This document shows, one piece after another, positions 2,248-25,855 of a DNA stretch of 30,773 nucleotides. How positions within the stretch are numbered: the first letter of the stretch is position 1; every line of letters begins with the position of its first letter. The notes beneath the pieces are model-generated. The model did not search any database and was not told the DNA's origin. It saw only the letters and a list, made by a program, of their open reading frames with translations. The position numbers and the translations under genes are program-made. Origin of the DNA: a virus; the IMG/VR virus record IMGVR_UViG_3300021091_000275, positions 1 to 30,773 of that record; one strand, given 5' to 3'.

Positions 2248-2487
2248 ATGCCAATCAATCTAAGTACATTATCAGGTAGTTCATTAGCTGGTCAAATAGG
2301 TGCTACTGGTGCTACTGGTGTCACAGGTTCTACTGGTCCACAAGGTATTCAAGGTGCAAGCGGTGCCACAGGTTCTACCGGACCAATTGGTGCGACAGGT
2401 CTTGGTGCTACAGGTTTAACTGGTGCAACTGGAGTTGCTGGTATGCAATTTACTGTATCAGGCAGCAGTTTGTACATTACTACATAA
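2248..2487 (+). CDS. Short collagen-like protein
   Basis: Codes for 79 residues: a 16-residue leader ([16 protein letters not shown]), about 16 Gly-X-Y triplets with one register break at GATGLGATG, and a short hydrophobic tail ending in SGSSLYITT. It is far too short to be a whole fibre; it could be a fibre tip, a trimerisation piece, or the remnant of a longer fibre gene. Its collagen DNA is nearly identical to part of the upstream fibre gene. AAAGGTAAG sits a few bases before ATG, so it is probably translated. Confidence 0.75.
2308..2358 (+). repeat. Collagen-coding tract, copy B (matches 143-193)
   Basis: Second copy of the 51-base collagen-coding tract, two mismatches from copy A. Confidence 0.75.
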
Positions 2488-2495
2488 AGCAATAT

Positions 2496-2987
2496 ATGCC
2501 TACTCAGCAAATAGATTTTAGTACAATCCAAAATATATATCTAAATGGTAATGAAATTTTTGAATTACAATTAGATAATCAAGTATTATGGAAAAAGTAT
2601 CTATTTAATGGTACGACAACTTTTACCACTTCATATAATACATCAGTATCAAATACGACTAGTGCTATAACAAATTATGCTACAAATTATACAACATCAG
2701 TTACAACTTCTAATCTGACAGCTTATTCACAAACTACGTCTAATACTACATCGATCGCTACTATTGTTGGGCAGGACAAAAAACTCGGACCAATATATGC
2801 AAATACTGCTTATTTGACGTATTTTATTACTTCATACAATGAAACTACTTCATATACTACTTCATGGTCTACAAGTAACACAACTAGTAACACGACTTCA
2901 TATTTGACAAATTATCTAGCTTCTACTTCTAACCCAACAAGTTTAAATTATAGTACGTATTTGATAACATATATTGGTAAAGTTTAA
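2496..2987 (+). CDS. Thr/Ser/Asn/Tyr-rich repetitive virion-type protein
   Basis: Codes for 163 residues. The first about 37 (IDFSTIQNIYLNGNEIFELQ, then a Val-Leu-Trp) resemble short N-terminal domains of phage fibre proteins, where a strand 'YLNG..I..L.L....LW' is common. The rest is a low-complexity array of TTS, NTTS, TSYNT and TNY units, broken near residues 86-108 by a more ordinary segment (IVGQDKKLGPIYANTAYL). Apart from that segment there is almost no charge, and no cysteine. Such composition suits an extended, surface-exposed beta structure or a heavily modified stalk. Its stop overlaps the start of the next gene (TAATG), so the two are probably translationally coupled. That neighbour looks like a glycosyltransferase, making this protein a possible substrate; this is inference. 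Confidence 0.75.
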   Translation: MPTQQIDFSTIQNIYLNGNEIFELQLDNQVLWKKYLFNGTTTFTTSYNTSVSNTTSAITNYATNYTTSVTTSNLTAYSQTTSNTTSIATIVGQDKKLGPIYANTAYLTYFITSYNETTSYTTSWSTSNTTSNTTSYLTNYLASTSNPTSLNYSTYLITYIGKV

Positions 2988-3871
2988 TGGATACAATTAA
3001 CAGTAGATGGGAAGATGAATCACGGATAGGTAATAATGTACCGCTTTATGATAAAGAAATCTTTTTAGAGATTGAAAAATATATTATAAAAACATGTGCT
3101 AAGTACGACTTAACCTGTAAGTATAATGTTGGCCCATTAATAGGAGGGGTTCCTCCTATCGAAGATAATACAATCATAGTTAATCCGTTAGTTAATGCTA
3201 TAGCATATCATGATGTTATGGGTGGTATCCTGATAAGTACTAGAAACGCTGAACTAAACTGCAGAAATGTTGACACAATATTAGCTAATCATATGACAGA
3301 TGATATATCTGAAATTGTTATTTCTAAATTAAAAGACAAGTATGTATTAAATAGTAGTGATAAACTATATGATAAAGTTGCATTTATGCCGGGATCTAAC
3401 TTATTTCATACAGTTAATTGGGAAAAACTAAATGAAGCTATGATTGATAATCCATCTGCTATGATTAAACTACACCCAGTTATAACTGAAAAGTCTGCTA
3501 AGTCAATTAAGAATAAGTGGCCTGAAAGAGTTATAGATGAAAAAACTAGTGGACTACAGCTACTTAATGCTTCATCTTTAATTTGGACTTCTTATAATAG
3601 TGAATTTGGTTTAATAGCTAGTTTAAAGAAAATACCATTTTCAAATTTAAGTAAATGGAATGATGTATTTTCAATGGTATATGCACCAATATATAGAAAT
3701 TTAAAATATAAAGATTTAGAGCATAATAAAGATGTAGTTTCAAAAGTAATTTCAAGTAAGAGAAGTGGATACATATTTCCTTGGCAAGATGATTGGAAAC
3801 AGCGAGTTGAAATATATTTTGAATCTATACATAAGTTTAATACTGGAATGGAATATCCATATGCCGAGTAA
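2987..3871 (+). CDS. Candidate GT-B-like glycosyltransferase (capsule-type)
   Basis: Codes for 294 residues. Residues about 158-165 (SAMIKLHPV) and 192-218 (LLNASSLIWTSYNSEFGLIA, then LKKIPF) recall the C-terminal half of GT-B enzymes of the capsule/Kdo transfer type: a 'K.HP' motif, then a hydrophobic strand and a Ser/Glu-containing loop before a conserved Gly or Ala and 'K.P'. The N-terminal half has no motif I recognise. There is no membrane segment, so a cytoplasmic enzyme is likely. It starts on the stop of the Thr/Ser-rich gene and ends overlapping the next gene by 11 bases. Base composition is clearly AT-richer than the baseplate genes. The family call is from pattern only; a catalytically inactive relative or another polysaccharide enzyme is possible. 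Confidence 0.5.
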   Translation: MDTINSRWEDESRIGNNVPLYDKEIFLEIEKYIIKTCAKYDLTCKYNVGPLIGGVPPIEDNTIIVNPLVNAIAYHDVMGGILISTRNAELNCRNVDTILANHMTDDISEIVISKLKDKYVLNSSDKLYDKVAFMPGSNLFHTVNWEKLNEAMIDNPSAMIKLHPVITEKSAKSIKNKWPERVIDEKTSGLQLLNASSLIWTSYNSEFGLIASLKKIPFSNLSKWNDVFSMVYAPIYRNLKYKDLEHNKDVVSKVISSKRSGYIFPWQDDWKQRVEIYFESIHKFNTGMEYPYAE

Positions 3872-4670
3872 AGTAATATCACAACAATTAAAAATATATT
3901 CTGAAAATATAGATCATCATTTAGCCATCAATAGTATACCAAATTGTGGGCTTGTTACTTTATTAGATGATGCTGATATTATCTTAGATTCAACAAATAA
4001 ATTAGAATTTAAAAATATAGATATAAATGCATATTTTTCTAATAAAAGGACTAATATTAAAAGCATGCCGGCTTATGTAAAATATATTGATCAACAAAGT
4101 ATGTTATATCATATTAATAATAAGCAAGTATTGTATTCAAAGATCTCCGTGGTTCCATTCCATGAATTTATTAATAATACTTCATTTAAGTATTTTGTTG
4201 ATATGTATAAAGATCAAACATTTGACTTAGTTAAGCTTGATAAAGATGATGAAACTGTTTTAACAACTGATACGCTAGAAAATATATTAATCATTCATGA
4301 TAATTTATTAGAAACAACATTGATAGAAGATGTAATGTTTAGTTCAAACTCAAAATATATGGTCAGAAAAATAAAAAATCCTCAAACAAAATATGTTTAT
4401 GGAGCTATTTCTTTTGATGGTACATCACTCCATATTGCTACTAATGTTAGGATGCCTAATCAAATTTTATCATTGGTTAAATTATTATTTGCGGCTTGTG
4501 CCGGGTTTTTTCAAATAGAATACTTTGATAATGTTAATAAGTATGAAATTTATAGTTTTAAATTTTCAATGGATCTAGATATTTTATCAGATAATATAAT
4601 TAATATACCTCAAGTGCAAAAAGCTTTTGAAGAAATTTCAAATCAATATGAATTTGGAATGGATGTATGA
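3861..4670 (+). CDS. Unknown protein in the modification cassette
   Basis: Codes for 269 residues from the ATG at 3861. The frame runs open further upstream, to an ATG at 3765, but that stretch lies entirely inside the preceding gene, and GGAATGGA stands eight bases before 3861. Mixed alpha/beta-looking, acidic, no signal peptide; residues about 215-226 (ILSLVKLLFAAC) are hydrophobic but probably a core helix. I recognise no family. It is coupled to both neighbours: it overlaps the candidate glycosyltransferase by 11 bases and the PP-loop ATPase by four (ATGA). A function linked to those enzymes is therefore likely, but nothing in the protein itself shows which. Confidence 0.75.
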   Translation: MPSKVISQQLKIYSENIDHHLAINSIPNCGLVTLLDDADIILDSTNKLEFKNIDINAYFSNKRTNIKSMPAYVKYIDQQSMLYHINNKQVLYSKISVVPFHEFINNTSFKYFVDMYKDQTFDLVKLDKDDETVLTTDTLENILIIHDNLLETTLIEDVMFSSNSKYMVRKIKNPQTKYVYGAISFDGTSLHIATNVRMPNQILSLVKLLFAACAGFFQIEYFDNVNKYEIYSFKFSMDLDILSDNIINIPQVQKAFEEISNQYEFGMDV

Positions 4671-5323
4671 GTAAATTTCTATTGTCTCTTTCAGGTGGAA
4701 AAGATAGTTTAGCTGCTTATCTTAAATTAAAAGAAACTTTTGGTTCTAGTTGTATTAAAACGTTTACCATTAAATCAAACAATGATGTGGTCTGGAATAC
4801 AGATCTAGATTTAATAGATGAAATGTATGAAAATAATATAATACTAGATTCTGGCGATAAAGTCTATTATGATGCATTTGGCCAAATGCTAAATGATCAT
4901 GATATTAATCCTAATGAATATTATTTTTCATCAGGAGAATTAGATTCTATAAATGAAACAGTAGACTATTATCCTATAATAAGTAAGTTTGGGTTTAAAG
5001 GATTTGTTACTCCATTCTATGGTAAACCTAAACAACTTGTATTTGATATCTTGCAAAAATATAACTGCGAGTTTATTATAACTCAAGCCTTTGTAACACC
5101 TACAGCTAATATTGATGAAGTTTATTCTAATATTGGTCGTATAGTAACAGCCGAGCAGCTTAAAAACATGTATCTGGATAAGAATTTTAATTATTTTTTT
5201 GCATATCAGACTTTTGCTATTAAATGTGATTCAATAATAACATTAAGCCAAAACAAAATAACAGGTTTATATGAATCTATTAATATGTCTAAAGATAAAA
5301 ATACATCAATATTTATTATGTAA
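4667..5323 (+). CDS. PP-loop ATP-pyrophosphatase, Dph6-like
   Basis: Codes for 218 residues. The N-terminus carries the PP-loop SGGKDS at residues 9-14, which binds the ATP phosphates in adenine-nucleotide alpha hydrolases (they adenylate a substrate and release pyrophosphate). The order of motifs fits the diphthine-ammonia ligase (Dph6/ATP_bind_4) branch: after the P-loop comes FSSGELDSINET near residue 88, then FVTPFYGKPKQLVFDILQ, then a 'C.FIITQAFVTP' strand. Known relatives amidate or activate carboxylates, or modify tRNA and nucleotides; the substrate here is unknown. The last about 40 residues are less conserved-looking. Translation is coupled to the upstream gene through ATGA, with GGAATGGA before the start. 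No late promoter is seen inside the cassette. Family call is fairly sure, function is not. Confidence 0.75.
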   Translation: MSKFLLSLSGGKDSLAAYLKLKETFGSSCIKTFTIKSNNDVVWNTDLDLIDEMYENNIILDSGDKVYYDAFGQMLNDHDINPNEYYFSSGELDSINETVDYYPIISKFGFKGFVTPFYGKPKQLVFDILQKYNCEFIITQAFVTPTANIDEVYSNIGRIVTAEQLKNMYLDKNFNYFFAYQTFAIKCDSIITLSQNKITGLYESINMSKDKNTSIFIM

Positions 5324-5325
5324 TT

Positions 5326-5333
5326 AATAAATA
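5326..5333 (+). promoter_or_regulatory. Near-match to a T4-type late promoter
   Basis: AATAAATA, one mismatch from TATAAATA, 21 bases before the small membrane protein start and just after the PP-loop stop. The spacing leaves room for a short leader with the SD AAGGAT. A weak match in AT-rich DNA. Confidence 0.35.
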
Positions 5334-5354
5334 GTTTATCTATAAGGATATAAA

Positions 5355-5462
5355 ATGCTTGAATATATTTTGTGCTATGCCTGGTCTTTTACTTTAGGTA
5401 CCATTTTTGGCGCAGCCTTAACATGGTACCTATTTTATTTACAATCTAAAGATAGAATATAA
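5355..5462 (+). CDS. Small single-span membrane protein
   Basis: Codes for 35 residues (begins MLEYILCYAWSFTLGTIFGA, ends YLQSKDRI). Residues about 5-29 form one hydrophobic span followed by a polar, charged tail, so an inner-membrane microprotein with a short cytoplasmic tail is likely. AAGGAT lies just upstream of ATG and the stop is only three bases before the PAAR gene, so it appears to be a real gene in the same transcript. Tiny membrane proteins near lysis or tail genes can affect lysis, superinfection or DNA entry; nothing here picks one. Confidence 0.6.
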   Translation: MLEYILCYAWSFTLGTIFGAALTWYLFYLQSKDRI

Positions 5463-5465
5463 GAT

Positions 5466-5750
5466 ATGTCAGCAGCTACTAGATTAGGAGATATTTGCAC
5501 AGGACATGGATGCTTTCCTCCCAGAGTGAATGATGAAGCATCTGACAATGTATTCATCAATGGCATAGGAGCTCATAGGTTAGGAGACCATTGGGTAACC
5601 CATTGTTGTACTATTATATGTCATGATGGAGTAGCAGCAGAAGGTTCATCTACTGTCTTTATTAATGGTAAAGCTGCAGTAAGGATAGGCGACATGATCT
5701 CATGTGGGTCAGCTTCTGCAGAGGGTTCACCTAATGTGTTCTTTGGATAA
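5466..5750 (+). CDS. PAAR-domain baseplate spike tip (T4 gp5.4-like)
   Basis: Codes for 94 residues, the usual length for a lone PAAR protein. It begins with the family signature ATRLGDICTGHG and repeats the strand pattern 'VFINGxxAxRxGD' twice (near residues 29-40 and 66-77). His14, Cys11, Cys16, the His/Cys-rich HWVTHCCTIICH stretch and a Cys in ISCGSA are candidates for the metal site that rigidifies the point. PAAR proteins cap the central spike of contractile tails and pierce the outer membrane. It lies three bases after the microprotein and directly before gp25, consistent with a baseplate operon. Confidence 0.92.
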   Translation: MSAATRLGDICTGHGCFPPRVNDEASDNVFINGIGAHRLGDHWVTHCCTIICHDGVAAEGSSTVFINGKAAVRIGDMISCGSASAEGSPNVFFG

Positions 5751-5755
5751 AGTCA

Positions 5756-5763
5756 TATAAATA
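5756..5763 (+). promoter_or_regulatory. Exact late-promoter box TATAAATA before gp25
   Basis: Exact match to the T4 late -10 type sequence. It ends only four bases before the gp25 ATG, so a transcript starting at the usual distance would be leaderless or begin inside the start codon. Confidence 0.5.
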
Positions 5764-5767
5764 AGAC

Positions 5768-6160
5768 ATGGCGCGAAATACCAGAACATTTTCTGATCTA
5801 GACCTTAACTTCACTAAACACCCGGTGACTAAGGATGTCGTACGTAAGTTCGACGAAGAGGCTATCAAGGCAGCTGTCAAGAACTTAGTCTTAACACAAA
5901 ACTACGAGAGACCATTCCATTCAGAGATTGGGTCTCAGATACGAGGCCTGCTGTTTGAGCCAGCGACGCCTATGTTAAACATAATGCTCAAGAGAGCTAT
6001 CGCTGATACCATCATTAACTTTGAACCAAGGGTTAAGCTTGATGAAGTATTGGTGACTTTCTCACCAGACAATAATGAAGTCTATGTATCGATATACTTC
6101 ACCATAGTCAACACAGTTCGACCATTACAGGTTGATCTTATTTTAACGAGAACAAGATAA
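5768..6160 (+). CDS. gp25: Baseplate wedge protein gp25
   Basis: Codes for 130 residues, close to T4 gp25 (132). The gp25/TssE core loop is present as NYERPFHSEIGSQ at residues 45-57, with the conserved Glu-Arg-Pro at 47-49, followed by the helix and strand pattern of the family. gp25 joins gp6 and gp53 in the inner wedge and helps start sheath polymerisation. It stops one base before the gp6 start. No SD is obvious close to its ATG; TATAAATA occupies that place instead. Codon use from here on contains more C and G at third positions than the preceding cassette. Confidence 0.95.
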   Translation: MARNTRTFSDLDLNFTKHPVTKDVVRKFDEEAIKAAVKNLVLTQNYERPFHSEIGSQIRGLLFEPATPMLNIMLKRAIADTIINFEPRVKLDEVLVTFSPDNNEVYVSIYFTIVNTVRPLQVDLILTRTR

Positions 6161-6161
6161 T

Positions 6162-8000
6162 ATGGAAAATAAAAACATAACCACTGCTGAGTTAGACTTT
6201 GATGCGATTAAATCCAACTTAAAAACATTCTTACAAGGCCAAGCAGCTTTTGCTGACTATGACTTTGAGGGTGCCGGCCTTTCCGTACTGATGGATATAC
6301 TCGCATACAATACCCATTACAACGCTCTATATACAAACTTAGCTGTCAATGAATCTTTCTTGGATTCTGCTAGCAAACGATCAAGCGTCGTTTCAAGAGC
6401 TAAAGAAATTGGGTACGTGCCTCATTCAGCCACTGGTGCTGTAGCTACGGTCAACATAACTGTCACAGGGACGACTTCATCACCTGCTACCTTGACACTA
6501 CCAGCATACAGCTCGTTCTCTACCACCGTGGATGGAGTCCAATATACATTTTATAACACCGAAGCCGTATCTACAAATAGAGTAGGCTCATCATATACAT
6601 TTACAGGCATAGACATCAAAGAAGGTACACCATTAACGTTCAAGTATACGGTGGCTTCTGGAACCAGGTACATACTACCAAACTCTGGAGTAGACTTATC
6701 TACCTTAAGCGTACGTGTCCAAGATAACTCAACGTCTTCAGTTTTCAACTCGTTCGTCAACCAAGAGCAGATCTTAAACCTAGACGAAGAGTCAAAAGTA
6801 TTCTTTATAAAAGAGATCGAAGGTGAACTCTATGAGCTAGAGTTTGGTAATGACACCATAGGTAAAGCGTTGGTGACAGGTAACGTGGTCAACATATCAT
6901 ACATGGTCACAAACACGATCGAAGCCAACGGAGCTAGACTATTTAACTATACAGGATCAAGCTTATTAGGAGGCACAGTAGCAGTGACTACCACGACTCC
7001 TGCGGTAGGTGGTGCTGACATCGAGTCCATAGAGTCTATCAGGTACAACGCTCCTCGTTCATACTCATCACAAAACCGTGCAGTCACAGTAGAAGACTAT
7101 AAGGCATTGATATTTAGGTTATACCCAGAAGCAGAGACAGTCAATGCATGGGGCGGAGAAGACAACGTGCCACCAGTCTATGGTAAAGTATTCTTGTCTA
7201 TCAAGCCTACTAACACGACTGTACTGACTGCGGCTCAAAAGAACTTCATCATCAACGAGATCTTAAAACAAAAGAACGTTGTATCGATCACACCTGAGAT
7301 TGTTGACCCAGAATACATCCAGCTAGATATCAACACCACCGTATACTATAACCCTAGGTTAACATCTAAGTCTGAGAGCGAGATAAAGACTTTGGTCGTT
7401 GATACTATCAAAGCTTACAACACAGAAAACCTTGAGTCCTTCACAGGCATCTTTAGGTTCTCTAACATAACAGCTGACATAGACAACACTGAAGACTCGA
7501 TCATAAGTAACATCACGACCATAAAACTACACCGAGAAGTCGAGATCCAGTATAATACCAACGCAAACTATAGCATATATCTAGGCAACCCGATATACAA
7601 CTCAACTGTACCAGAACAATCATTGACATCTACAGGCTTCTATATCGCAGGTAACGAGAACCTCATGTACCTTGAAGACTTACCATCAAATTCTAGGTAC
7701 GGTGTGTTGAAGATGTACTACTTCAACGTAGACGTCAAGACATACTTCAGGACGTTTGGTACGATAGATTACCAAACAGGTACTGTCAACATGCCAGAGC
7801 TAGAGATCACAGGCATCGACCAAGCTACAGGCACCCTCGAGTTGATCGTTAAACCCCAATCAAACGACGTAGTATCTATTCGTAACCAACTGGTCACCAT
7901 ACCTGACGAGCAGATCAACGTCGAAGTCATACTAGATAAGGTAGCAGTGGGTGACCCTGCTGGTGGATCTAATTACCAATTCACGTCAAGTCGTAACTAA
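6162..8000 (+). CDS. gp6: Baseplate wedge protein gp6 (baseplate J-like)
   Basis: Codes for 612 residues against 660 in T4. The N-terminus holds the baseplate-J pattern: helices with MDILAYNTHYNALYTNLAVN (about residues 45-64), then 'SFLDSA..RSSVVSRAKEIGYVP', a Thr/Ser-rich beta region, and 'NRAVTVEDYKALIFRLYPEA' near residue 305. gp6 dimers form the inner ring that ties the wedges together and drives the hexagon-to-star change. It begins one base after gp25 and its stop overlaps the next start (TAATG). The C-terminal 200 residues are beta-rich and less conserved-looking. Identification is strong from motifs, length and gene order. Confidence 0.92.
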   Translation: MENKNITTAELDFDAIKSNLKTFLQGQAAFADYDFEGAGLSVLMDILAYNTHYNALYTNLAVNESFLDSASKRSSVVSRAKEIGYVPHSATGAVATVNITVTGTTSSPATLTLPAYSSFSTTVDGVQYTFYNTEAVSTNRVGSSYTFTGIDIKEGTPLTFKYTVASGTRYILPNSGVDLSTLSVRVQDNSTSSVFNSFVNQEQILNLDEESKVFFIKEIEGELYELEFGNDTIGKALVTGNVVNISYMVTNTIEANGARLFNYTGSSLLGGTVAVTTTTPAVGGADIESIESIRYNAPRSYSSQNRAVTVEDYKALIFRLYPEAETVNAWGGEDNVPPVYGKVFLSIKPTNTTVLTAAQKNFIINEILKQKNVVSITPEIVDPEYIQLDINTTVYYNPRLTSKSESEIKTLVVDTIKAYNTENLESFTGIFRFSNITADIDNTEDSIISNITTIKLHREVEIQYNTNANYSIYLGNPIYNSTVPEQSLTSTGFYIAGNENLMYLEDLPSNSRYGVLKMYYFNVDVKTYFRTFGTIDYQTGTVNMPELEITGIDQATGTLELIVKPQSNDVVSIRNQLVTIPDEQINVEVILDKVAVGDPAGGSNYQFTSSRN

Positions 8001-9526
8001 TGAGCATTGATCTAAAGACGGTAGTCTCGAAACAAATCCCAGAGTTTATACGGGAAGACAACCCAACGTTCGTAGCTTTCGTTGAAGCATACTATCAGTA
8101 CTTAGATCAGTATGAGAAGCGAGACTTATACGAGATCAGGGATATCGACCAGACGGTAAACTCATACATCCAGTTTTTTAAGAACGAACTAGATATATTT
8201 GGTGAGAAGTATGACTACATAGACCAAAGGTTGTTTTTAAGGAAAGTTAAAGAGCTATTCGTAGCAAAAGGCGTTGAGGCTTCCTATAAGTTCTTACTCA
8301 AGCTACTGTTTAATAAGACTGCCGAGATATCGTATCCATGGGACTCAGTATTAAAGGCTTCTGACGGTAAATGGCAACAAGAGATGTCAGTCTTTGTTGA
8401 GTTTACTTCTGGAGATGCTAACTTGCTACCAGGAAATAGGATCAACATAACAGCCACGAACATCATCATCAAGGTATTCGTAGATCGAGTCAAACATATA
8501 AGAGGTAACATCTATGAAGTATTCATAGATAAAAACTATTATGGTGACATACAAGTAGATTACACACTATCATACGATGGTATAGTCGGGACTATCATCC
8601 CTACAACAGTGTCATACAGCGTCACCCAGCCAGGATCAGGATACAAGATCGGAGACCTAATCACTGGTACGACTATATCTGGTGGAGAGACTATCACCCA
8701 GCTTTTAAAGGTCACAAAGGTGGATTCTAACGGCGGGGTAGTTAACATAACCACCCTTAGGTTTGGTGCTGGTTATACTGCTGGATTTTACTTATTAAAG
8801 TCAAACGAAGCCATCACTACGTCTTCTACGATATCTATTGAAAAAGAATCAACGCCACAATATACTATACCGACAGAATCTACAGTAGATCAATATGAGG
8901 ACTATGGATATGTAGTAAACCCAAACTACTGCGATGTGACCTACGATGACCCATCGTACAAGGGTACACTACTACAACAGTTCTATGATGAGTCTTTATC
9001 AGGTCAAGGTACAAACCCTGACTACCTATTGATTAGATTTGATATAGGAGCTGTAGCAAAGTATCAAGGCCATTGGACATCAAACGACGGGTTCTTAGAT
9101 GACATCATCTATATACAAGACAGTTACAGATGGCAAAAGTATTCTTACTTGATCACGATCGACGAGAACCTTGAAAATTACAAGTCATTGATCAAGTCAT
9201 ACTTACACCCTGCAGGCACAGCATTGTTTGGCGAGTACAGGATACAAAACATATTTAACGTTGATGCCACCGCTGTACAAGAATTAACACAATGGAGATC
9301 TAAAGCTACATTCCTCACTATAAATAAAGACATGGGTACTGAATACGTGTATCCTTCAGATCAAGGTGGACACATCTCTATCGAACCATATAGCTCTGAA
9401 GATTACTTTGTACCAGAAGAATTTTATAATCCACCAGTAGTTATCCCATTCTTCGGTGATGGTAGAAACAACTTGCAATCTAGTATAACAATAACAGATG
9501 CTTCACCCAGCATCGTAGAATCTTAA
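8000..9526 (+). CDS. Virion protein, baseplate wedge-associated
   Basis: Codes for 508 residues. The N-terminal about 125 residues (PEFIREDNPTFVAFVEAYYQ, then a helix-rich segment to SDGKW near residue 120) form a domain I recognise from structural proteins placed after gp6 in T4-like marine phages. The middle has two 'G.GY' strand motifs (PGSGYKIGD near 211 and GAGYTAGF near 255), the same type of module that is expanded in the gp8-like protein. The C-terminal part is beta-rich and ends in an acidic, low-complexity tail. Order suggests a wedge component, perhaps doing the work of T4 gp7 or gp53, but I cannot show homology to either. An exact TATAAATA lies inside the gene at 9319-9326. Confidence 0.75.
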   Translation: MSIDLKTVVSKQIPEFIREDNPTFVAFVEAYYQYLDQYEKRDLYEIRDIDQTVNSYIQFFKNELDIFGEKYDYIDQRLFLRKVKELFVAKGVEASYKFLLKLLFNKTAEISYPWDSVLKASDGKWQQEMSVFVEFTSGDANLLPGNRINITATNIIIKVFVDRVKHIRGNIYEVFIDKNYYGDIQVDYTLSYDGIVGTIIPTTVSYSVTQPGSGYKIGDLITGTTISGGETITQLLKVTKVDSNGGVVNITTLRFGAGYTAGFYLLKSNEAITTSSTISIEKESTPQYTIPTESTVDQYEDYGYVVNPNYCDVTYDDPSYKGTLLQQFYDESLSGQGTNPDYLLIRFDIGAVAKYQGHWTSNDGFLDDIIYIQDSYRWQKYSYLITIDENLENYKSLIKSYLHPAGTALFGEYRIQNIFNVDATAVQELTQWRSKATFLTINKDMGTEYVYPSDQGGHISIEPYSSEDYFVPEEFYNPPVVIPFFGDGRNNLQSSITITDASPSIVES

Positions 9527-9537
9527 TAGGAGTAAAC

Positions 9538-10245
9538 ATGTTTAAAGACGGCATTAAATTAACAGGACGTTTGTTAATACAAAAATTTAACGTCAATAAG
9601 GAGCTGGTGTATTCTACAGAAGTACCTAACTTGATAGTTACTGCTGGAAAAGAATTCGTTGCTTCTAGGATAGTTGGATCAACATTAGATGTTATGGGTT
9701 ACATGGCTATCGGTGACGACGCATCGACTAGTGCTTTAGCACAAACAACATTGGTCAACGAGTTAGCTAGAGTTGCTATTACTTCCGCGACAGCTTCAGG
9801 TGTAAACGCGACGTTCACTGGTACTTTTGGTGCTGGCGTTGGTACAGGTTCTATAGTAGAAGCTGGTATATTCAATGCTGACGACTCTTCAGTGCTCGTG
9901 TTTGACGGCGATAACGACGTAGATGATGCATCAGACGAGATCACCTACAACTCTCATGGTCTAGTGACAGGGGACAAAGTAACTTATACAGATGGCGGCG
10001 GTACAGCTATCACAGGTTTAACAGATGGTGGTACTTATTACATCATCCGTGTAGACGCAAATACAGTGCAGTTGGCGTCCTCATATGCAAATGCTGTAGC
10101 TGGTACAGAACTAGGTTTAACATCAGGTTCAGGTCTTAATCATAAGTTGACTTATGGTACTATGCTTTGCAGGACAACATTCCCAGTCATTACTAAATCA
10201 AGTTCAGAAACTATTGCTATATCTTGGGTTGTTTCTGTAGGATAA
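9538..10245 (+). CDS. Small structural protein with an inserted beta module
   Basis: Codes for 235 residues. Residues 1-120 and 205-235 look like one continuous domain (starting DGIKLTGRLLIQKFNVNKEL, ending SSSETIAISWVVSVG) of a type seen in phage tail proteins, with 'GYMAIGDDASTSALAQTTL' typical of it. Residues about 121-205 (from FDGDNDVDDASDEITYNSHG to SGLNHKLTYG) are a separate module that is also present in the next gene. Removing it would leave a normal-sized small tail protein, so insertion is likely. AGGAG stands seven bases before ATG, a strong SD. Likely part of the baseplate or fibre attachment; exact role unknown. Confidence 0.75.
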   Translation: MFKDGIKLTGRLLIQKFNVNKELVYSTEVPNLIVTAGKEFVASRIVGSTLDVMGYMAIGDDASTSALAQTTLVNELARVAITSATASGVNATFTGTFGAGVGTGSIVEAGIFNADDSSVLVFDGDNDVDDASDEITYNSHGLVTGDKVTYTDGGGTAITGLTDGGTYYIIRVDANTVQLASSYANAVAGTELGLTSGSGLNHKLTYGTMLCRTTFPVITKSSSETIAISWVVSVG

Positions 10246-10249
10246 TAAA

Positions 10250-13015
10250 ATGACATCATCATATTCAATATTTAAACAGAAGTTCAAGAAGACGATAGCT
10301 GATGCTATCTATCAAGAAGTTACTTCTAATACTGCGACTTACTATCATTGGTTTGGTAAAGAAAATAGTTGGACAGACTTCTTAAGCCCGTTCATACCAT
10401 CTTCAACCACTGATATACCAGGAGCACCTTCAGAAAACTTCAGGTATGAACTTCATGTTCGTCGAGACCTACTAACCGCAAAGAAGATTAAACCTTCAGA
10501 CGTATCTTATGTGGTCAGACGTATCGACTGGACATCAAATACTGTTTATGATATATACGATGACGCCATCGAGACTACTACAGGATACGGATACGGCCCA
10601 GCATATTCTGGAGCTACACGTTTAGAAGATGCAGACTTTTATGTATTGACTACAGACTATAACGTCTATAAGTGCATAGATAACAACGAAGATTCACCTT
10701 CACTATACATGCCTACTGGTACGACGACAGACGTGTTCTCTACATCTGACGGTTACAGATGGAAGTTTATGTACTCTATCCCGGTATCATTAAGAAATAG
10801 GTTCTTGTCTTCTGAACATATGCCAGTCTCTACAGCTTTAAAAGCACAGTTCTATTCGAGCGGTACTATTAACTTTATAGCTATAGAAAATGGTGGTGGA
10901 GGATATAATCCTGCCACGACCACTGCAGTCATCACCGGTGACGGGTACAAAGAATCAAACCCATACTTAATTAGTTCTTTAACATTAGAAGAAGCTGGAG
11001 ATGGTTACTCTACTGTTAGTGCTAGCATATCATCACCGTTCTCTTCATTTCTTGTATGGTCTTCAGAGCTTAACGTATCTGTTGGCACTTATATTAAGCA
11101 CACAAATCCTGCAACTTTAGATGATAACTTTTACTACGTAGTCACTGGCACTAAGTTAGGCACTAGTGGACCAATCCATACTTCAGGAACAATCAATAAT
11201 GGGTCAGCACAGTTAAAATATGTAGGTACTACAGCAACGATATCTGTTACATTATCAGGATCTGAAGTTGACTCAGTGACTTTAGTTGATGGCGGCTTTG
11301 GTTATCAAGATACTCCTACTATCACTGTTTCAGAACCGGTCACAAAAGATGATAATTGGGAACCATTAGTCACAGCTACACTTGGAGATATACTCTATCA
11401 TTCAGGTAGATACTACGAGGTCACTACTGGTGGTAGCACAGGAACAACTGGTCCGACACATACTTCGGGTGCTGTAGCAAACGGCGCTGCAGTATTAACA
11501 TACGTAGCTACACTAGCAGAGATCACTGCTGTCATCGTGAAGACAGAAGCTGAGATAGACCTCACCATATCTCCTGGGATTGATAGTGTGTATACTCTAT
11601 TACTAGGTTCACAAGGCACAAAATACGTAGAGGTGCCTAACGTCACGATAGCAGCTCCAGGAACTGGCACTACAGCGACGGCGACAGCAGCCATAGATGC
11701 AGGTAAAGTAATAACACTGTCAGTGTCAGATGCAGGAAACGGATACACATCAGCTCCTGCAGTTACTATATCTTATCCAAAATTGACATTTAATGGTGCT
11801 ACTGCTGTAAACGATGTGGCCGAGACGATCACATATACTGGACATAGACTAGTCACAGGAGATGCTGTTGTATACAATAACGGTGGAGGTACATCTATTG
11901 GTGGACTAACATCAACTAATACCTACTATGTTATCAAAGTAAATGATAACATTATTCAACTTGCAGGTTCATCTGGCGACGCATCGTCTGGTACATACAT
12001 AAACTTAACAGACGGAGTCGGATCAGCTCATACATTGACATTGACTACAGGTCAAGCTACAGCTACTGCAGTATTAGGTACTGGTGGTGAGATAGTTGGG
12101 TATACGATCGTGGACGGAGGAGTTGGTTATACTAATGCTAACATCGAGGTAGTTGACTCATCATCTTCCGGAAGTGGTGCAGTATTGGCAGCAGACTTTT
12201 CTATAGGAGCGATCGATACGCTTCAAGCAAACGTTGAGTTGCTAGCTGTACCAGGTTCAGTAGAAACCATAAAGATGGTAGAAAATGGTACAGGTTATGG
12301 TGCTGCGACCGTCAACATCCTTGGTGATGGTACAGGAGCCACAGCAACAGCTACATGTTCTGGTGGTCAGGTAACTAAGATAGAAATAACTAATGCTGGT
12401 TCTGGATATACATGGACTGAGATCGAGATCACTGGTAATTCTGGATCATCTGGTGCTGTAGCAAGAGCTATCATGTCACCATTAGGTGGTCATGGATCAA
12501 ACGCTATCGACGAGTTAAACGCTAACTCTATAATCTTCTATACATCTATCTCAAGAGATAAGAACCAAGGTATTGAGATCAACAACGACTATCGTAAGGT
12601 TGGTCTTGTACGTAACTTAAAACAGTTTGGTTCTAACAGAAGGTTTACAGAAGACATTGGTTCTGGATGTGTGCTGGTTACTGGCATTTTTAACCCTACA
12701 CAACTACAGTATGATATGTTACTATTAAAAGATGGGTATAAAAAGTATCGTATAGTAGACTTTAATGATACACAGATCCTAGTATCAGTGTTTAATAACT
12801 TTACTATCGGTATAGGAGATGTTTTGGTCACAGACCCTACAAATGAAGGAGCTGTATCTGCACCTACGGTAGTAGCACAAAACATCATAGCAACAGCGGT
12901 TTCTGAAAGGACTATAGATCAGTTCTCTGGAGACTTCTTGATGTTCTCTGTGAGAGAAGCTTACGCACCGACGTCTGAGCAAATTATCACGGTAAGAACC
13001 ACATTAACCATATAA
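10250..13015 (+). CDS. gp8: Enlarged gp8-like baseplate wedge protein
   Basis: Codes for 921 residues against 334 in T4 gp8. The ends carry the gp8 pattern: SDVSYVVRRIDW (about residues 80-91), DYNVYKCID (near 137), SDGYRWKFMYSIP (about 166-178), and a C-terminus SVREAYAPTSEQIITVRTT comparable to gp8's last strand. Between about 200 and 770 lie inserted modules: at least six 'GG.GY'-type units, two copies of a 'G..Y.VT.G...GT.GP.HTSG' unit (about 266-335 and 369-425) and one 'HxLVTGD...GGGT' module (about 514-602). gp8 joins the wedge arms and connects to gp10 and gp6 in T4. Inserts presumably decorate the outside of the baseplate. Family call is good at the ends; function of the inserts is inference. 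Confidence 0.78.
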   Translation: MTSSYSIFKQKFKKTIADAIYQEVTSNTATYYHWFGKENSWTDFLSPFIPSSTTDIPGAPSENFRYELHVRRDLLTAKKIKPSDVSYVVRRIDWTSNTVYDIYDDAIETTTGYGYGPAYSGATRLEDADFYVLTTDYNVYKCIDNNEDSPSLYMPTGTTTDVFSTSDGYRWKFMYSIPVSLRNRFLSSEHMPVSTALKAQFYSSGTINFIAIENGGGGYNPATTTAVITGDGYKESNPYLISSLTLEEAGDGYSTVSASISSPFSSFLVWSSELNVSVGTYIKHTNPATLDDNFYYVVTGTKLGTSGPIHTSGTINNGSAQLKYVGTTATISVTLSGSEVDSVTLVDGGFGYQDTPTITVSEPVTKDDNWEPLVTATLGDILYHSGRYYEVTTGGSTGTTGPTHTSGAVANGAAVLTYVATLAEITAVIVKTEAEIDLTISPGIDSVYTLLLGSQGTKYVEVPNVTIAAPGTGTTATATAAIDAGKVITLSVSDAGNGYTSAPAVTISYPKLTFNGATAVNDVAETITYTGHRLVTGDAVVYNNGGGTSIGGLTSTNTYYVIKVNDNIIQLAGSSGDASSGTYINLTDGVGSAHTLTLTTGQATATAVLGTGGEIVGYTIVDGGVGYTNANIEVVDSSSSGSGAVLAADFSIGAIDTLQANVELLAVPGSVETIKMVENGTGYGAATVNILGDGTGATATATCSGGQVTKIEITNAGSGYTWTEIEITGNSGSSGAVARAIMSPLGGHGSNAIDELNANSIIFYTSISRDKNQGIEINNDYRKVGLVRNLKQFGSNRRFTEDIGSGCVLVTGIFNPTQLQYDMLLLKDGYKKYRIVDFNDTQILVSVFNNFTIGIGDVLVTDPTNEGAVSAPTVVAQNIIATAVSERTIDQFSGDFLMFSVREAYAPTSEQIITVRTTLTI

Positions 13016-22267: not shown

Positions 22268-22996
22268 ATGACACTACATATCAAAGATTCAGGAGTCTGG
22301 AGACTTATATCAAATGCCTTTGTAAAAGTATCAGGTGTTTGGAAGGACTCAGATCGAATATACGTTAAAGACGCTGGAGTATGGAGAGAAGTGCACGCTG
22401 CTTATCCAGGTGCTGGATCACAGACGTTTAATACTTCTGGAACTTTTACTGTGCCAGCTGGTGTTAACACTATCAGCGGGACAGTTTATGGTGGAGGCGG
22501 AGGCGGTGGAGGGTCTGGTTCAAGAAACAGCTTCGATAACAATGCTGGCTATGCAGCGGGTGGAGGAGGTGGTGGATCAGGTACACAAAACTTTACAGCT
22601 TCAGTAACTGGTGGATCAACACACTACGTTCAAGTATCTCAAGGTGGTGGCGGCAGCAACATGGGTGTTGGAGGTGGTGGAGCTGGTACGACTTATGTTG
22701 GCAGTCTATTAGTCATACCTGCGGCATCTTCTGGTCAACCACCAAGTGTTATCGGTATAGGCAAAGGGTCAAGTCATCCTGGCGGAGCAGGAGGAGCAGG
22801 TGTTATTGGCGGCAATGCAGGAAACCAAGGAGCTGCAAACGTAAATAGTGGTAACTTTGGAAACTCTGGTCCAGGAGGATCAGGCGGTAATGGTGGTGTA
22901 GGTAATGGTGGTGCAGGTGGACCAAACGTTGGGTTTAATGGTGCTGGTTCAGCTGGATCTGCAGGTAATGCAGGAAGAGTAGTGATTAACTGGTAA
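22268..22996 (+). CDS. Glycine-rich fibre tip or adhesin-like protein
   Basis: Codes for 242 residues. The first 42 hold three related 14-residue units ('IKDSGVWRL', 'VKVSGVWKD', 'VKDAGVWRE'), an anchor-like repeat common at the start of phage fibre proteins. A beta stretch (QTFNTSGTFTVPAGVNTISG) follows, then about 160 residues of glycine-rich sequence with runs of up to eight Gly, ending in AGNAGRVVINW. Gly-rich domains of this type fold either as beta or as polyglycine-II bundles; the latter forms the receptor-binding tip of gp38-type adhesins of T4-like phages. Homology to gp38 itself is not claimed. AAAGGAAT before ATG is a strong SD. It overlaps the next start by one base. Confidence 0.78.
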   Translation: MTLHIKDSGVWRLISNAFVKVSGVWKDSDRIYVKDAGVWREVHAAYPGAGSQTFNTSGTFTVPAGVNTISGTVYGGGGGGGGSGSRNSFDNNAGYAAGGGGGGSGTQNFTASVTGGSTHYVQVSQGGGGSNMGVGGGGAGTTYVGSLLVIPAASSGQPPSVIGIGKGSSHPGGAGGAGVIGGNAGNQGAANVNSGNFGNSGPGGSGGNGGVGNGGAGGPNVGFNGAGSAGSAGNAGRVVINW

Positions 22997-23577
22997 TGCG
23001 TATAGAATATTTGAAGAAACCTTTTTATCATACTATCATCTATGATTTTTTTAATCAAGATGAAATGGATACTATTAAAAAAGAAATTGATGAATTAAAA
23101 AATATTAATGCTGATATAAAAGATGAGCATCATAAACAAATATTAGAAAATGGTAATATTGAAAGTTATTTGTTAGATGTTATCTACAATGATAGAAGAC
23201 GTGATAGTAATATACTTAGTTTAATTACTAAAATATATAATATGTATTGGGATGATAAATTTGATTTATCTAAAAACCCATTTTTAAATTATATAGGTTT
23301 ATCAAATTCTGATAATACAGTAGTACATGCATATAAGAATCATTCTAGTTATTTTGAGCATCATGATCAAAGTGTAGTATCATTCTTATATCCATTTTTT
23401 GATAAACAATTTGATGGTGGAGAATTAGCATTTGGTGATTATATACCAAAGTTAGAATCAAATTGCTGTATAATATTTCCGTCATATGAAAAGCATAAAG
23501 TATTACCGATAAAAACCAAAGAATCTGGTATAGTTCGTTGGTCTATAAATCAAAGGATCTTTATTAGGAATGGATGA
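22996..23577 (+). CDS. 2OG-Fe(II) oxygenase, AT-rich
   Basis: Codes for 193 residues. The iron ligands are in order: His122-x-Asp124 (YFEHHDQS), distal His167 (SYEKHKV), then Arg181 for 2-oxoglutarate (GIVRWSINQR). Between them is the core strand pattern 'SFLYPFF' and 'FDGGELAFGD'. Prolyl-4-hydroxylase-like members hydroxylate protein side chains; other phage members act on nucleic acid or small molecules. The substrate here is unknown. The gene is much AT-richer than both neighbours (many ATA, TTA, AAT codons), which suggests separate acquisition. It is the first of three oxygenases, and its stop overlaps the following start. Confidence 0.82.
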   Translation: MRIEYLKKPFYHTIIYDFFNQDEMDTIKKEIDELKNINADIKDEHHKQILENGNIESYLLDVIYNDRRRDSNILSLITKIYNMYWDDKFDLSKNPFLNYIGLSNSDNTVVHAYKNHSSYFEHHDQSVVSFLYPFFDKQFDGGELAFGDYIPKLESNCCIIFPSYEKHKVLPIKTKESGIVRWSINQRIFIRNG

Positions 23578-24050
23578 TGAGAACTTGGGCTGAGATATCA
23601 TATGGCATAGTTAGGTATATGTTCGAAGCACCAGAAGTCCCGTTAGGACAGCCTGGTGTATACTATCATGATGTGACCGATTATGATCCTAAACCAGAAG
23701 TATTATACGAATACAATGCATCTACTAAACAGTTTACTAAACCTGAGTTTAGTGATCTAAACCATCCAAAGAATATAAGCATTGCATGGAATGGTGTGAG
23801 GAACATACGAAACACTGCATTAAACCTTTCTGATTATACTCAGACTAAAGATTTTCCGGACAAGGTGATGCAAAAGAGATTTAAGAAGTACAGACAGGTG
23901 CTAAGAGATTTACCAGAGAAATACTCTAGTCCCTATGATGTGAAGTTTCCTCTGGATCCGTATAAAACTGAAATTAAATTAACTTTTTGGGAAAGACTTC
24001 AATATGTTTGGTCGTACATTAAAAACGGAAAAAATATACGTAGTAGATAA
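23577..24050 (+). CDS. Tail assembly chaperone-like protein (Phage_tail_APC type)
   Basis: Codes for 157 residues from ATG 23577 (158 from ATG 23574); AGGA at 23566-23569 fits the downstream start better. The signature 'RNTALNLSDYTQTKD' followed by 'KYRQVLRDLPEKY' (about residues 78-116) is that of small phage tail assembly chaperones ('R...L..SDWTQ..D......YRQ.LRDLP'), which help fold or trimerise fibres. It sits between two oxygenases and overlaps both, the second by 47 bases. That could link folding and modification of fibres, but this is inference. Confidence 0.75.
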   Translation: MRTWAEISYGIVRYMFEAPEVPLGQPGVYYHDVTDYDPKPEVLYEYNASTKQFTKPEFSDLNHPKNISIAWNGVRNIRNTALNLSDYTQTKDFPDKVMQKRFKKYRQVLRDLPEKYSSPYDVKFPLDPYKTEIKLTFWERLQYVWSYIKNGKNIRSR

Positions 24051-24549
24051 TGTCATTGATTATAGTAATCAAGAAGCTTTATTTGGATTTTGTAAGAACA
24101 GTATCTTTAGCTTTGGTCATGCCGCAACTTCAGTTAGTCCATATGAACTATCAAGATTCGTATCAAACCTAACAAACGAAGAGCTTGCTAGGACTAACTT
24201 AGATAACCTATTTACCTCGTTGGTCAAGAAACATTATGGCAAAGGTCTTAAGATAGATCGATCATATATCAACGTTTATTTTCCATATACACCAACTGCA
24301 GTACACACTGATGATTGTTCACATGATGCAGTATCATTCTTGATGTATGCTAATCCTTATTGGCAAATAGATTGGGCTGGAGAGACTCAGTTCTTTACAG
24401 ATAACTTACAAGAAGTAAGACAATCGGTCATACCAAAGGGTGGTAGAGCTATAGTGTTTAACTCTAATATACCTCATTCGGCAAGAACGCCTTCTGTCAT
24501 ATGTCCAGTGCCTCGATTTACTTTGACTATTAAAGGATACTTAATATGA
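24004..24549 (+). CDS. 2OG-Fe(II) oxygenase, second
   Basis: Codes for 181 residues. Iron ligands His101-Thr-Asp103 (AVHTDDCSHD) and His158 (IPHSAR), with Arg171 (VPRFTLTIKG) as the likely 2-oxoglutarate partner; AGETQFFTD near 125-133 is the usual 'GGE..F' strand. It is of different sequence from the other two. It overlaps the chaperone-like gene by 47 bases; no other in-frame ATG lies near, and the N-terminal TEKIYVVDNVID is what such enzymes normally begin with, so the overlap is probably genuine. The stop overlaps the next start (ATGA). Substrate unknown. Confidence 0.82.
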   Translation: MFGRTLKTEKIYVVDNVIDYSNQEALFGFCKNSIFSFGHAATSVSPYELSRFVSNLTNEELARTNLDNLFTSLVKKHYGKGLKIDRSYINVYFPYTPTAVHTDDCSHDAVSFLMYANPYWQIDWAGETQFFTDNLQEVRQSVIPKGGRAIVFNSNIPHSARTPSVICPVPRFTLTIKGYLI

Positions 24550-25145
24550 CACCACAATTTTTAGATTTTATTGGGATGATACCTCAAGGTTTTCCTAAGA
24601 AGACTTGTAAGAAGATCATCGATGCATATCATGAACTAGATAAACTAAAGCACACCGTACCAGGTAGGATCGGCGGTGTTAGTAGACCAGCTGAAGTCAT
24701 GAAGGCCGCAAAGAACAGCAGAGACGTAGAGCTTGGTGTGTTTCATAGTTACAGAGACCTTTTGTTTGAAGTCAATGGTTACCTTCAAACGTGTTATAAC
24801 CAATACATGGACAAGTACTGGCAGATAGGACAGTACTTAAGCAGACATGATGTGACTGCATGGCAGATACAAAAGTATGATGCTAAAGACAATGGTGGTT
24901 ACCATCATTTTCATATAGAGAACAGTGGTGTAAGTAACATGCGAAGGGTCATGGCTTACATAGTTTATCTAAACGATATCGATGAGGGTGGAGAGACAGA
25001 GTTCCTACATCAAAATATCAGGGTTAAACCTGAAGCTGGTAAAGTAGTCATATTCCCTGCATACTTTACACACGTCCACAGAGGAAACCCTGTCCTCAGC
25101 GGACAAGATAAATATATCTTAACAGGATGGTTGGAATACGTATGA
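24546..25145 (+). CDS. 2OG-Fe(II) oxygenase, prolyl-4-hydroxylase-like with HxE
   Basis: Codes for 199 residues. The closest of the three to prolyl-4-hydroxylase: 'YHHFHIE' (His123-Ile-Glu125), 'YLNDIDEGGETEF' (141-153), 'GKVVIFPAYFTHVHRGNPV' (165-183, distal His176 or His178) and 'KYILTGW' (189-195, Lys189 for 2-oxoglutarate). The second metal ligand is Glu rather than Asp, an uncommon but known variation. Members of this branch occur in many T4-like marine phages. AAAGGATAC precedes ATG. The obvious candidate substrates are the collagen-like fibres, but their triplets carry Pro at X, not Y, so classical 4-hydroxylation is not what they offer. Confidence 0.88.
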   Translation: MTPQFLDFIGMIPQGFPKKTCKKIIDAYHELDKLKHTVPGRIGGVSRPAEVMKAAKNSRDVELGVFHSYRDLLFEVNGYLQTCYNQYMDKYWQIGQYLSRHDVTAWQIQKYDAKDNGGYHHFHIENSGVSNMRRVMAYIVYLNDIDEGGETEFLHQNIRVKPEAGKVVIFPAYFTHVHRGNPVLSGQDKYILTGWLEYV

Positions 25146-25855
25146 TGAGTAAAGTGACGGTAGGTTGGGCACCATATTTAGAATCTGATTATCAAAAAGG
25201 CCTAGCTTTCTTAGCTAGTAAACCTATAAGCGTATATGAAACGCATATGAAAGCAGGCAATCATAGGTATAAACTATGTCCTGCGACTCGAGACCTTGCG
25301 CTTAATACGTTTATAGTTAGGTCACCTTTTGATGCACACTTTATAGTAGACGCTGATAAGAAGACTATACAGTTTATAGAACCATACGTTCAGCCGTTTG
25401 AGTTTTATCATATGAGGAAGGGCGAGTACTCTGACACTGACCAGCCTATCATGTCGATAAACTATCATCAAGTGTTTGTCACTGAAGATAAGAACGTGGA
25501 GATGACTGTGACTGCTCCATGGTTTGAAGAGACACAACAAGATTTTAGGGTCGTGCCAGGTAGATTTAAGATAAGTGACTGGTGGAGACCATTAGACTTT
25601 GCTATACAATTAAAGGAACGAAGACAAGAAGTAAGGATTAAGAAGGACGATCCATTATTCTACTTGACTTTTATTACTGGAGACCCCTCTGATGTGGTTG
25701 TCATCAAAGATGTCGACTTAAATGATGATTTAAAGAGTATCTTGGCTTCGGCTACAGACGCTAAACACTATCAACCAAGGTGTCCTATGAAGACGCTTTA
25801 TGGGATATTTAATCGCTACAAACGTAAGCCTTCATTACGATTTTTAGATAAATAG
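25142..25855 (+). CDS. Unknown conserved-looking protein after the oxygenases
   Basis: Codes for 237 residues from ATG 25142 (ATG 25145 possible; 25127 lies inside the previous gene and lacks support). Trp- and Pro-rich segments such as VGWAPY, PWFEETQQDF, 'GRFKISDWWRPLDFAIQ' and 'DDPLFYLTFITGD' suggest a folded beta domain. I recognise no family with certainty. The gene is coupled to the HxE oxygenase (ATGA-type overlap) and ends the cluster, so a role in the same modification is plausible. After it come AT-rich bases with promoter-like boxes. Confidence 0.7.
   Translation: MMSKVTVGWAPYLESDYQKGLAFLASKPISVYETHMKAGNHRYKLCPATRDLALNTFIVRSPFDAHFIVDADKKTIQFIEPYVQPFEFYHMRKGEYSDTDQPIMSINYHQVFVTEDKNVEMTVTAPWFEETQQDFRVVPGRFKISDWWRPLDFAIQLKERRQEVRIKKDDPLFYLTFITGDPSDVVVIKDVDLNDDLKSILASATDAKHYQPRCPMKTLYGIFNRYKRKPSLRFLDK

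Follow-up and report, generated by a model that had tools for sequence, protein, structure and literature searches.

The window analysed here is the whole of IMG/VR record IMGVR_UViG_3300021091_000275, a linear fragment of 30,773 bases from a T4-like phage. Within its baseplate and fibre region, positions 2496-5323 hold four overlapping genes (genes 1 to 4; Table 1), preceded by collagen-like fibre genes. An earlier note on this DNA had described the four as tightly coupled and richer in AT than the baseplate genes, and both descriptions are accurate. Genes 1 and 2 meet in a TAATG (2985-2989), genes 2 and 3 share 11 bases (3861-3871), and genes 3 and 4 meet in an ATGA (4667-4670); the GC content of the block is 27.2% (28.9, 29.4, 24.7 and 26.5% for genes 1 to 4), against 41.1% in the baseplate genes (5466-13015) and 38.7% across the window. 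The note had also proposed that a phage glycosyltransferase modifies the adjoining Thr/Ser-rich fibre. This central proposal came through the two refuting checks that were made, with a GT-B fold predicted and the synteny of the pair conserved; the note's reading as a whole, in which genes 3 and 4 would also build or attach an unusual sugar or amide, is supported in part.

Gene 1 encodes a low-complexity protein with the Thr/Ser/Asn/Tyr bias first reported for it (24% Thr, 13% Ser, 11% Asn and 10% Tyr). Some 35 non-repetitive N-terminal residues lead into a C-terminal repeat region rich in these four residues, and Thr shows an autocorrelation of 0.46 at lag 4. Because Thr is written with four different codons, gene 1 is not a simple DNA repeat. 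Its product is probably a virion component. Orthologues occupy the matching position in three other viral contigs, L004 (IMGVR 3300008450_005336), L005/L013 (3300042295_001187) and L011 (3300012664_000274).

On these three contigs the order of the four genes is unchanged and their overlaps are similar, so the set is more than a chance arrangement. In the close pair L004/L005, the ratio of nonsynonymous to synonymous polymorphism (pN/pS) is 0.40, 0.07, 0.13 and 0.02 for genes 1 to 4 (gene 4 partial), and all four genes are thus under purifying selection. The copies of gene 2 are 62-71% identical to that of the window, and those of genes 3 and 4 are 30-37% identical; for L011 the values are 71% (gene 2), 30% (gene 3) and 34% (gene 4). 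Genes 1 and 2 of the window therefore seem to have a history partly separate from that of genes 3 and 4. A tblastn search of 50,697 phage records with genes 1, 3 and 4 gave no match, follow-up searches using the L011 copies gave matches at chance level only, single-sequence scans of viral contigs mostly recovered the same contig, and for genes 2 and 4 scans of genome contigs found neither cellular nor prophage relatives. In L005, the stretch before the four-gene set (2582-9426) holds four genes resembling radical S-adenosylmethionine (SAM) enzymes, one with a B12-binding domain, and genes resembling 2-oxoglutarate (2OG)-Fe(II) oxygenases, which suggests further modification chemistry beside the Thr-rich fibre.

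Genes 1 and 2 form part of a wider module. A tblastn search with gene 2 recovered relatives annotated as "hypothetical protein" in Caulobacter phages (the T7-like Quill_5.2, Lullwater and others; the T4-like Cr30), in Vibrio KVP40-like phages and in Stenotrophomonas DLP_6. A Thr/Ser/Tyr-rich repeat gene lies just upstream of the homologue in Cr30 and Quill_5.2, and two genes upstream in the T4-like KVP40; the linkage is seen in Lullwater as well. With a profile built from seven gene 2 sequences, we found 74 loci on viral contigs, and most of those with upstream sequence have a Thr-rich open reading frame (ORF) directly upstream, reaching 70% Thr per 60 residues and 1,483 amino acids. At 57 of 68 gene 2 loci, a gene that reaches 30% Thr over 60 residues ends no more than 1 kb upstream, whereas 2 of the 695 remaining genes at these loci are as rich in Thr; at a threshold of 25%, the counts were 61/68 and 19/695.

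The linkage was also approached from the fibre. Viral-contig DNA encoding TTS[FY]TTS[FY], a pattern independent of gene 2, was collected, and sense ORFs of at least 35% Thr with sequence beyond the fibre gene were counted. A gene 2 homologue was found in all 15 testable contigs (L094, L095, L097, L105, L111, L112, L114, L117, L121, L136, L140, L152, L154, L156 and L004) and in none of 20 control records, in which the DNA pattern falls outside Thr-rich ORFs. L114 is truncated where its contig stops, and the gene 2 search had turned up L097 and L004 before; L113 and L130, which stop right after the fibre gene, were left out of the count. Apparent Thr-rich ORFs lacking gene 2 in L134, L150 and L155 were discarded as antisense artefacts, the real genes lying on the opposite strand. 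The check for conserved synteny suggested in the earlier note thus came out in its favour: the linkage between fibre and enzyme is kept far beyond close relatives and is seen from both directions. Judged from gene order and homology, the core unit is genes 1 and 2 rather than all four.

Other genes accompany the pair. In many loci, not including the window, a small coiled-coil gene (50-70 amino acids) lies between the fibre and glycosyltransferase genes (for example L066 7574-7783, L071 7697-7867 and L009 4538-4756); it is possibly an assembly factor. In L180 (4282-8175), a SAM-methyltransferase-like gene has a Thr-rich fibre gene on either side (39% and 46% Thr), and a gene 2 homologue adjoins them.

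The suggestion that gene 2 encodes a GT-B enzyme is borne out by structure prediction. An AlphaFold2 model built from 32 homologues (predicted local distance difference test, pLDDT, 89; predicted template modelling score, pTM, 0.88) gives a confident GT-B fold, and its structural matches are mostly to solved GT-B enzymes. The best match found by Foldseek in the PDB is WbbB, a transferase of beta-linked 3-deoxy-D-manno-oct-2-ulosonic acid (Kdo) (8csd; expectation value, E, 3.7e-4; probability 1.00), and 5fa1 aligns with a template modelling score (TM-score) of 0.45. Nearly all the remaining top matches are GT-B enzymes or the related UDP-GlcNAc (uridine diphosphate N-acetylglucosamine) 2-epimerases; Asp1 stands low in the list, at ranks 18 and 35. 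By sequence, gene 2 matches PHROG 26179 (E 1.3e-38), and its profile matches KpsC across the KxHP region at E 6e-4, or 0.17 with a broader profile. Most homologues match no Pfam family. The best member against GT52 (E 5e-4, 19.8 bits) does not reach the curated cut-off of 26.1, and one member matches Capsule_synth below cut-off (E 6e-3).

The KLHPV motif noticed earlier is indeed present in gene 2. KxHP occurs in 77 of 77 full-length homologues, with K, H and P invariant, and is followed by [STNA][ST]E in 74 of the 77. (K/R)xHP is the motif that binds cytidine monophosphate (CMP) in sialyltransferases and retaining Kdo transferases (PMC12887879; PMC9587256). G[ST]N is conserved in gene 2 too but was given no weight, since the pattern used in the search selects for it. 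Asp60, in the N-terminal domain, is invariant and could serve as the base in an inverting, sialyltransferase-like mechanism. Motifs and model together would place gene 2 in the CMP-sugar (sialyl- or Kdo-transferase-like) branch with a predicted CMP-sugar donor; its catalytic activity and acceptor are likewise predictions. Two groups of characterized enzymes are instructive here. The retaining beta-Kdo transferases WbbB (GT99) and KpsC (GT107) are closest in fold and profile match and share (K/R)xHP, but they conserve a QxxxD motif, act on glycan rather than protein acceptors, and resemble the model at a TM-score of about 0.45. Bacterial GT-B sialyltransferases (GT52, GT80 and relatives) share KxHP and a downstream Ser-containing motif with gene 2, yet no member of the gene 2 family passes the curated GT52 threshold. 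Assignment to the retaining Kdo transferases (GT99, GT107 or GT140) was considered and rejected on the absence of QxxxD as a conserved motif.

As donor, Kdo or a nonulosonic acid is our best guess. Nearly every Gram-negative host contains CMP-Kdo. A jumbo phage of 206 kb (record G012) with a gene 2 homologue also encodes, at L168 8036-9804 and about 17 kb from the homologue, the CMP-Kdo synthetase KdsB, which scores above cut-off (TIGR00466, 210 bits), and an arabinose-5-phosphate isomerase of the KpsF/KdsD type (TIGR00393, 338 bits). Near main-cluster loci, genes resembling GT29 sialyltransferases form one family with 14 members among 31 sampled loci (PF00777, E 8e-8). Examples of these animal-type genes beside the fibre-transferase pair in environmental phages are L066 9593-10222 (-) and L040 5589-6266 (-). 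Radical SAM, JmjC, GT8-like and methyltransferase-like proteins are also encoded around the pair, an assortment that fits a core pair with variable tailoring enzymes.

We put at roughly 0.72 the probability that genes 1 and 2 are a substrate-enzyme pair, consisting of a Thr-rich acceptor and an O-glycosyltransferase that uses a CMP-sugar and is specific to this fibre, with genes 3 and 4 as optional tailoring functions. The product of gene 1 would be a short fibre of the virion, in which the Thr/Ser-rich repeats offer a dense array of sites for O-glycosylation. Gene 2 would encode a soluble cytoplasmic enzyme that draws on the host for an acidic sugar activated by CMP (Kdo or a nonulosonic acid being the likeliest) and transfers it onto the fibre before or during virion assembly. 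The Thr-rich fibre would thus probably be coated with an acidic sugar. In lineages that carry them, the PP-loop ATPase of gene 4 may adenylate a carboxylate, whether on the sugar acid itself or on some small acid joined to it, leading to an amide or similar group, with gene 3 as its partner.

Several observations weigh against this proposal. One sequence cluster holds 50 of the 68 loci, so independent support comes from about 6 to 9 of 12 clusters (6/12 with a Thr-rich neighbour at the 30% threshold, 9/12 at 25%). Clusters L071 and L083 have a large upstream fibre of just 12-15% Thr, and L073 has no Thr-rich gene nearby. The TM-score of gene 2 to WbbB is modest, at 0.42-0.45. QxxxD, which carries the Asp nucleophile of retaining Kdo transferases, is not conserved in the family: it occurs within 60 residues before KxHP in 22 of 77 homologues, at scattered positions, and not in the window protein. 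The identity of the donor sugar is for this reason a guess. KdsB was found in just 1 of 25 records and NeuB in 0 of 25, so the host would normally have to supply the CMP-sugar. Finally, we found no biochemical, virion-proteomic or glycan data on the pair.

Gene 3 has orthologues in L004, L005 and L011 only; it gave no match worth keeping in Pfam, NCBIfam, PHROG or the PDB, and an AlphaFold2 model from four sequences (pLDDT 45) was unusable. Gene 4 had been called a Dph6-like PP-loop protein. Its P-loop is real: SGGKDS lies at residues 9-14, and an SGGxDS loop near the N-terminus, within an invariant LSGGKDSLA, runs through the aligned members. The likeness to Dph6 is weak. Relatives match Diphthami_syn_2 below cut-off and over the first ~95 residues only (E 0.0018 for L004, 0.0087 for L011), and the window protein does not match it. 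Relatives also match QueC and ATP_bind_3 below cut-off, and PHROG 1550 'QueC-like' at E 6e-5; profile searches of the PDB with genes 3 and 4 gave chance matches only. Gene 4 thus has the PP-loop in common with the diphthine-ammonia ligase Dph6 and with QueC, but every member tested falls below the curated cut-offs. In KVP40, the gene 2 homologue is followed by a function-unassigned gene, a PP-loop gene that is QueC by Pfam (E 3e-9), a nicotinate phosphoribosyltransferase (NAPRTase)-like gene and radical SAM genes. Comparison of genes 3 and 4 with the equivalently placed KVP40 genes by hhalign gave no significant match, so the layout is the same and orthology is unproven. Compared with genes 1 and 2, genes 3 and 4 occur less often and look like an accessory pair. 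They possibly amidate or otherwise tailor the sugar; we propose amidation of its carboxylate for gene 4.

Genes 3 and 4 could instead serve a different pathway, one that makes a modified nucleotide or tRNA base or that modifies some other structural protein, and their place in this operon could be accidental. We take this alternative seriously while judging it less likely than not. QueC-type PP-loop enzymes make modified bases, the KVP40 gene is such a QueC, and the separate history of genes 3 and 4, evident from their low identity to L011 relative to gene 2, would be expected. Such an origin sits less well with their distribution, in that searches with genes 3 and 4 found them on four contigs only, always next to genes 1 and 2, with gene order and overlaps retained. 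A different challenge concerns the acceptor. Thr suits the packing of beta-strands, and bulky residues in gene 1 are evenly spaced (4, 6, 8, 10) as on a beta-strand face, so the Thr-rich region might be an unmodified beta-structured shaft and the target of gene 2 might lie elsewhere, for example in the collagen-like fibres encoded next to it. In many loci, T7-like phages included, the gene tied to the enzyme is Thr-rich irrespective of which further fibres the phage has, and we regard an unmodified shaft as improbable.

Equally improbable, in our view, is that gene 2 alters the host surface (the Kdo region of the lipopolysaccharide (LPS) core, O-antigen or capsule) and so excludes superinfecting phages, its position beside the fibre reflecting co-evolution of receptor and fibre. 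WbbB and KpsC, which among functionally characterized enzymes come closest to gene 2, do act on LPS and capsule, and seroconversion by phage glycosyltransferases is established (also mentioned in PMC12619734). Yet this leaves unexplained why the neighbour is specifically Thr-rich and why gene 2 accompanies every testable TTS-repeat fibre; moreover, in T7-like and T4-like phages the gene belongs to structural operons expressed late, when little would be gained from altering the surface of a dying cell. Least probable of all is that gene 2 is a former glycosyltransferase turned folding chaperone for a repetitive fibre. Its place directly after the fibre gene is that of a tail-fibre assembly chaperone, and in many loci the coiled-coil gene stands between the two. 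The constancy of KxHP and [STNA][ST]E and the pN/pS of 0.07, however, resemble a retained active site, and separate sugar enzymes (GT29- and GT8-like) cluster with gene 2.

A substrate-enzyme pair of genes 1 and 2 would have precedents of two kinds. Mycobacteriophages Che8, Corndog and Myrna glycosylate their virions (Freeman et al. 2023, as cited in PMC12619734 and PMC12363180). A phage-encoded glycosyltransferase acts there, too, on the phage's own virion proteins, but the targets are capsid and tail-tube proteins and not an adjacent, dedicated Thr-rich fibre. In the streptococcal serine-rich-repeat adhesins, a Ser/Thr-rich adhesin gene lies beside its own glycosylating Gtf/Asp enzymes. That system differs in being cellular, in using other enzymes with UDP-sugars and in having a dedicated secretion system, and our family and PDB searches revealed no sequence relation of Gtf/Asp to gene 2. 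To our knowledge, virion glycosylation has been shown in just a few phages. Virion glycosylation by phage enzymes is therefore not new in itself; what we add is a well-supported gene linkage and a proposed biochemistry. The open-licence literature yielded no account of this glycosyltransferase family occurring together with a Thr-rich fibre, and the pairing, present in many unrelated phages, seems to be undescribed.

The linkage joins two function-unassigned groups, PHROG 26179 and 30602, into one enzyme family tied to a recognisable acceptor and spanning T4-like, T7-like and jumbo phages. It makes a specific, testable prediction, namely that the Thr-rich fibre of cultured phages of Caulobacter crescentus, a harmless laboratory bacterium, carries a sugar. 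An O-linked acidic sugar on a phage fibre, whether Kdo or another, would if confirmed be a surprising modification for a protein, with a bearing on adsorption, on evasion of receptor mimics and antibodies and on virion stability in water; the pairing could influence how phages recognize their hosts or escape recognition. A bolder and rather doubtful extension is a widespread class of phages with mucin-like fibres, in which Thr carries O-linked Kdo or a Kdo-like ulosonic acid from the host CMP-sugar, attached by a dedicated enzyme family that lies outside every curated glycosyltransferase family so far. In some lineages, the window's included, the PP-loop ligase would amidate the sugar carboxylate and mask its charge.

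Table 1. Genes and motifs of the four-gene block and its flanks (window coordinates).
Feature	Position	Strand	Description
Collagen-like (GAT/GXY) small fibre gene	2248..2487	+	Directly upstream of gene 1; Pfam Collagen E 2e-7
Gene 1	2496..2987	+	163 aa (amino acids); short fibre/adhesin-like protein; proposed glycosylation acceptor
Gene 2	2987..3871	+	294 aa; predicted GT-B glycosyltransferase, CMP-sugar (sialyl-/Kdo-transferase-like) type; proposed fibre O-glycosyltransferase
KLHPV (KxHP) codons of gene 2	3467..3481	+	Residues 161-165; predicted CMP-binding site
Gene 3	3861..4670	+	269 aa, ATG at 3861; no assigned fold or function
Gene 4	4667..5323	+	218 aa; PP-loop (N-type ATP pyrophosphatase), nearest Dph6/QueC; proposed tailoring enzyme adenylating a sugar or peptide carboxylate (amide-forming)
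PAAR-repeat tail-spike tip gene	5466..5750	+	First of baseplate operon; Pfam PAAR E 9e-14
gp25-like baseplate gene	5768-6160	+	GPW_gp25 E 1e-11
gp6-like baseplate gene	6162-8000	+	Gp6-like E 1e-23

Elsewhere in the window, three different 2OG-Fe(II) oxygenase genes (22996-23577, 24004-24549 and 24546-25145) surround a tail-fibre assembly chaperone gene (23574-24050), and they might hydroxylate the several collagen-like fibres of this phage. The gene at 25127-25855, at the end of this oxygenase and fibre-assembly cluster, matches PHROG 17480 (E 1e-20).

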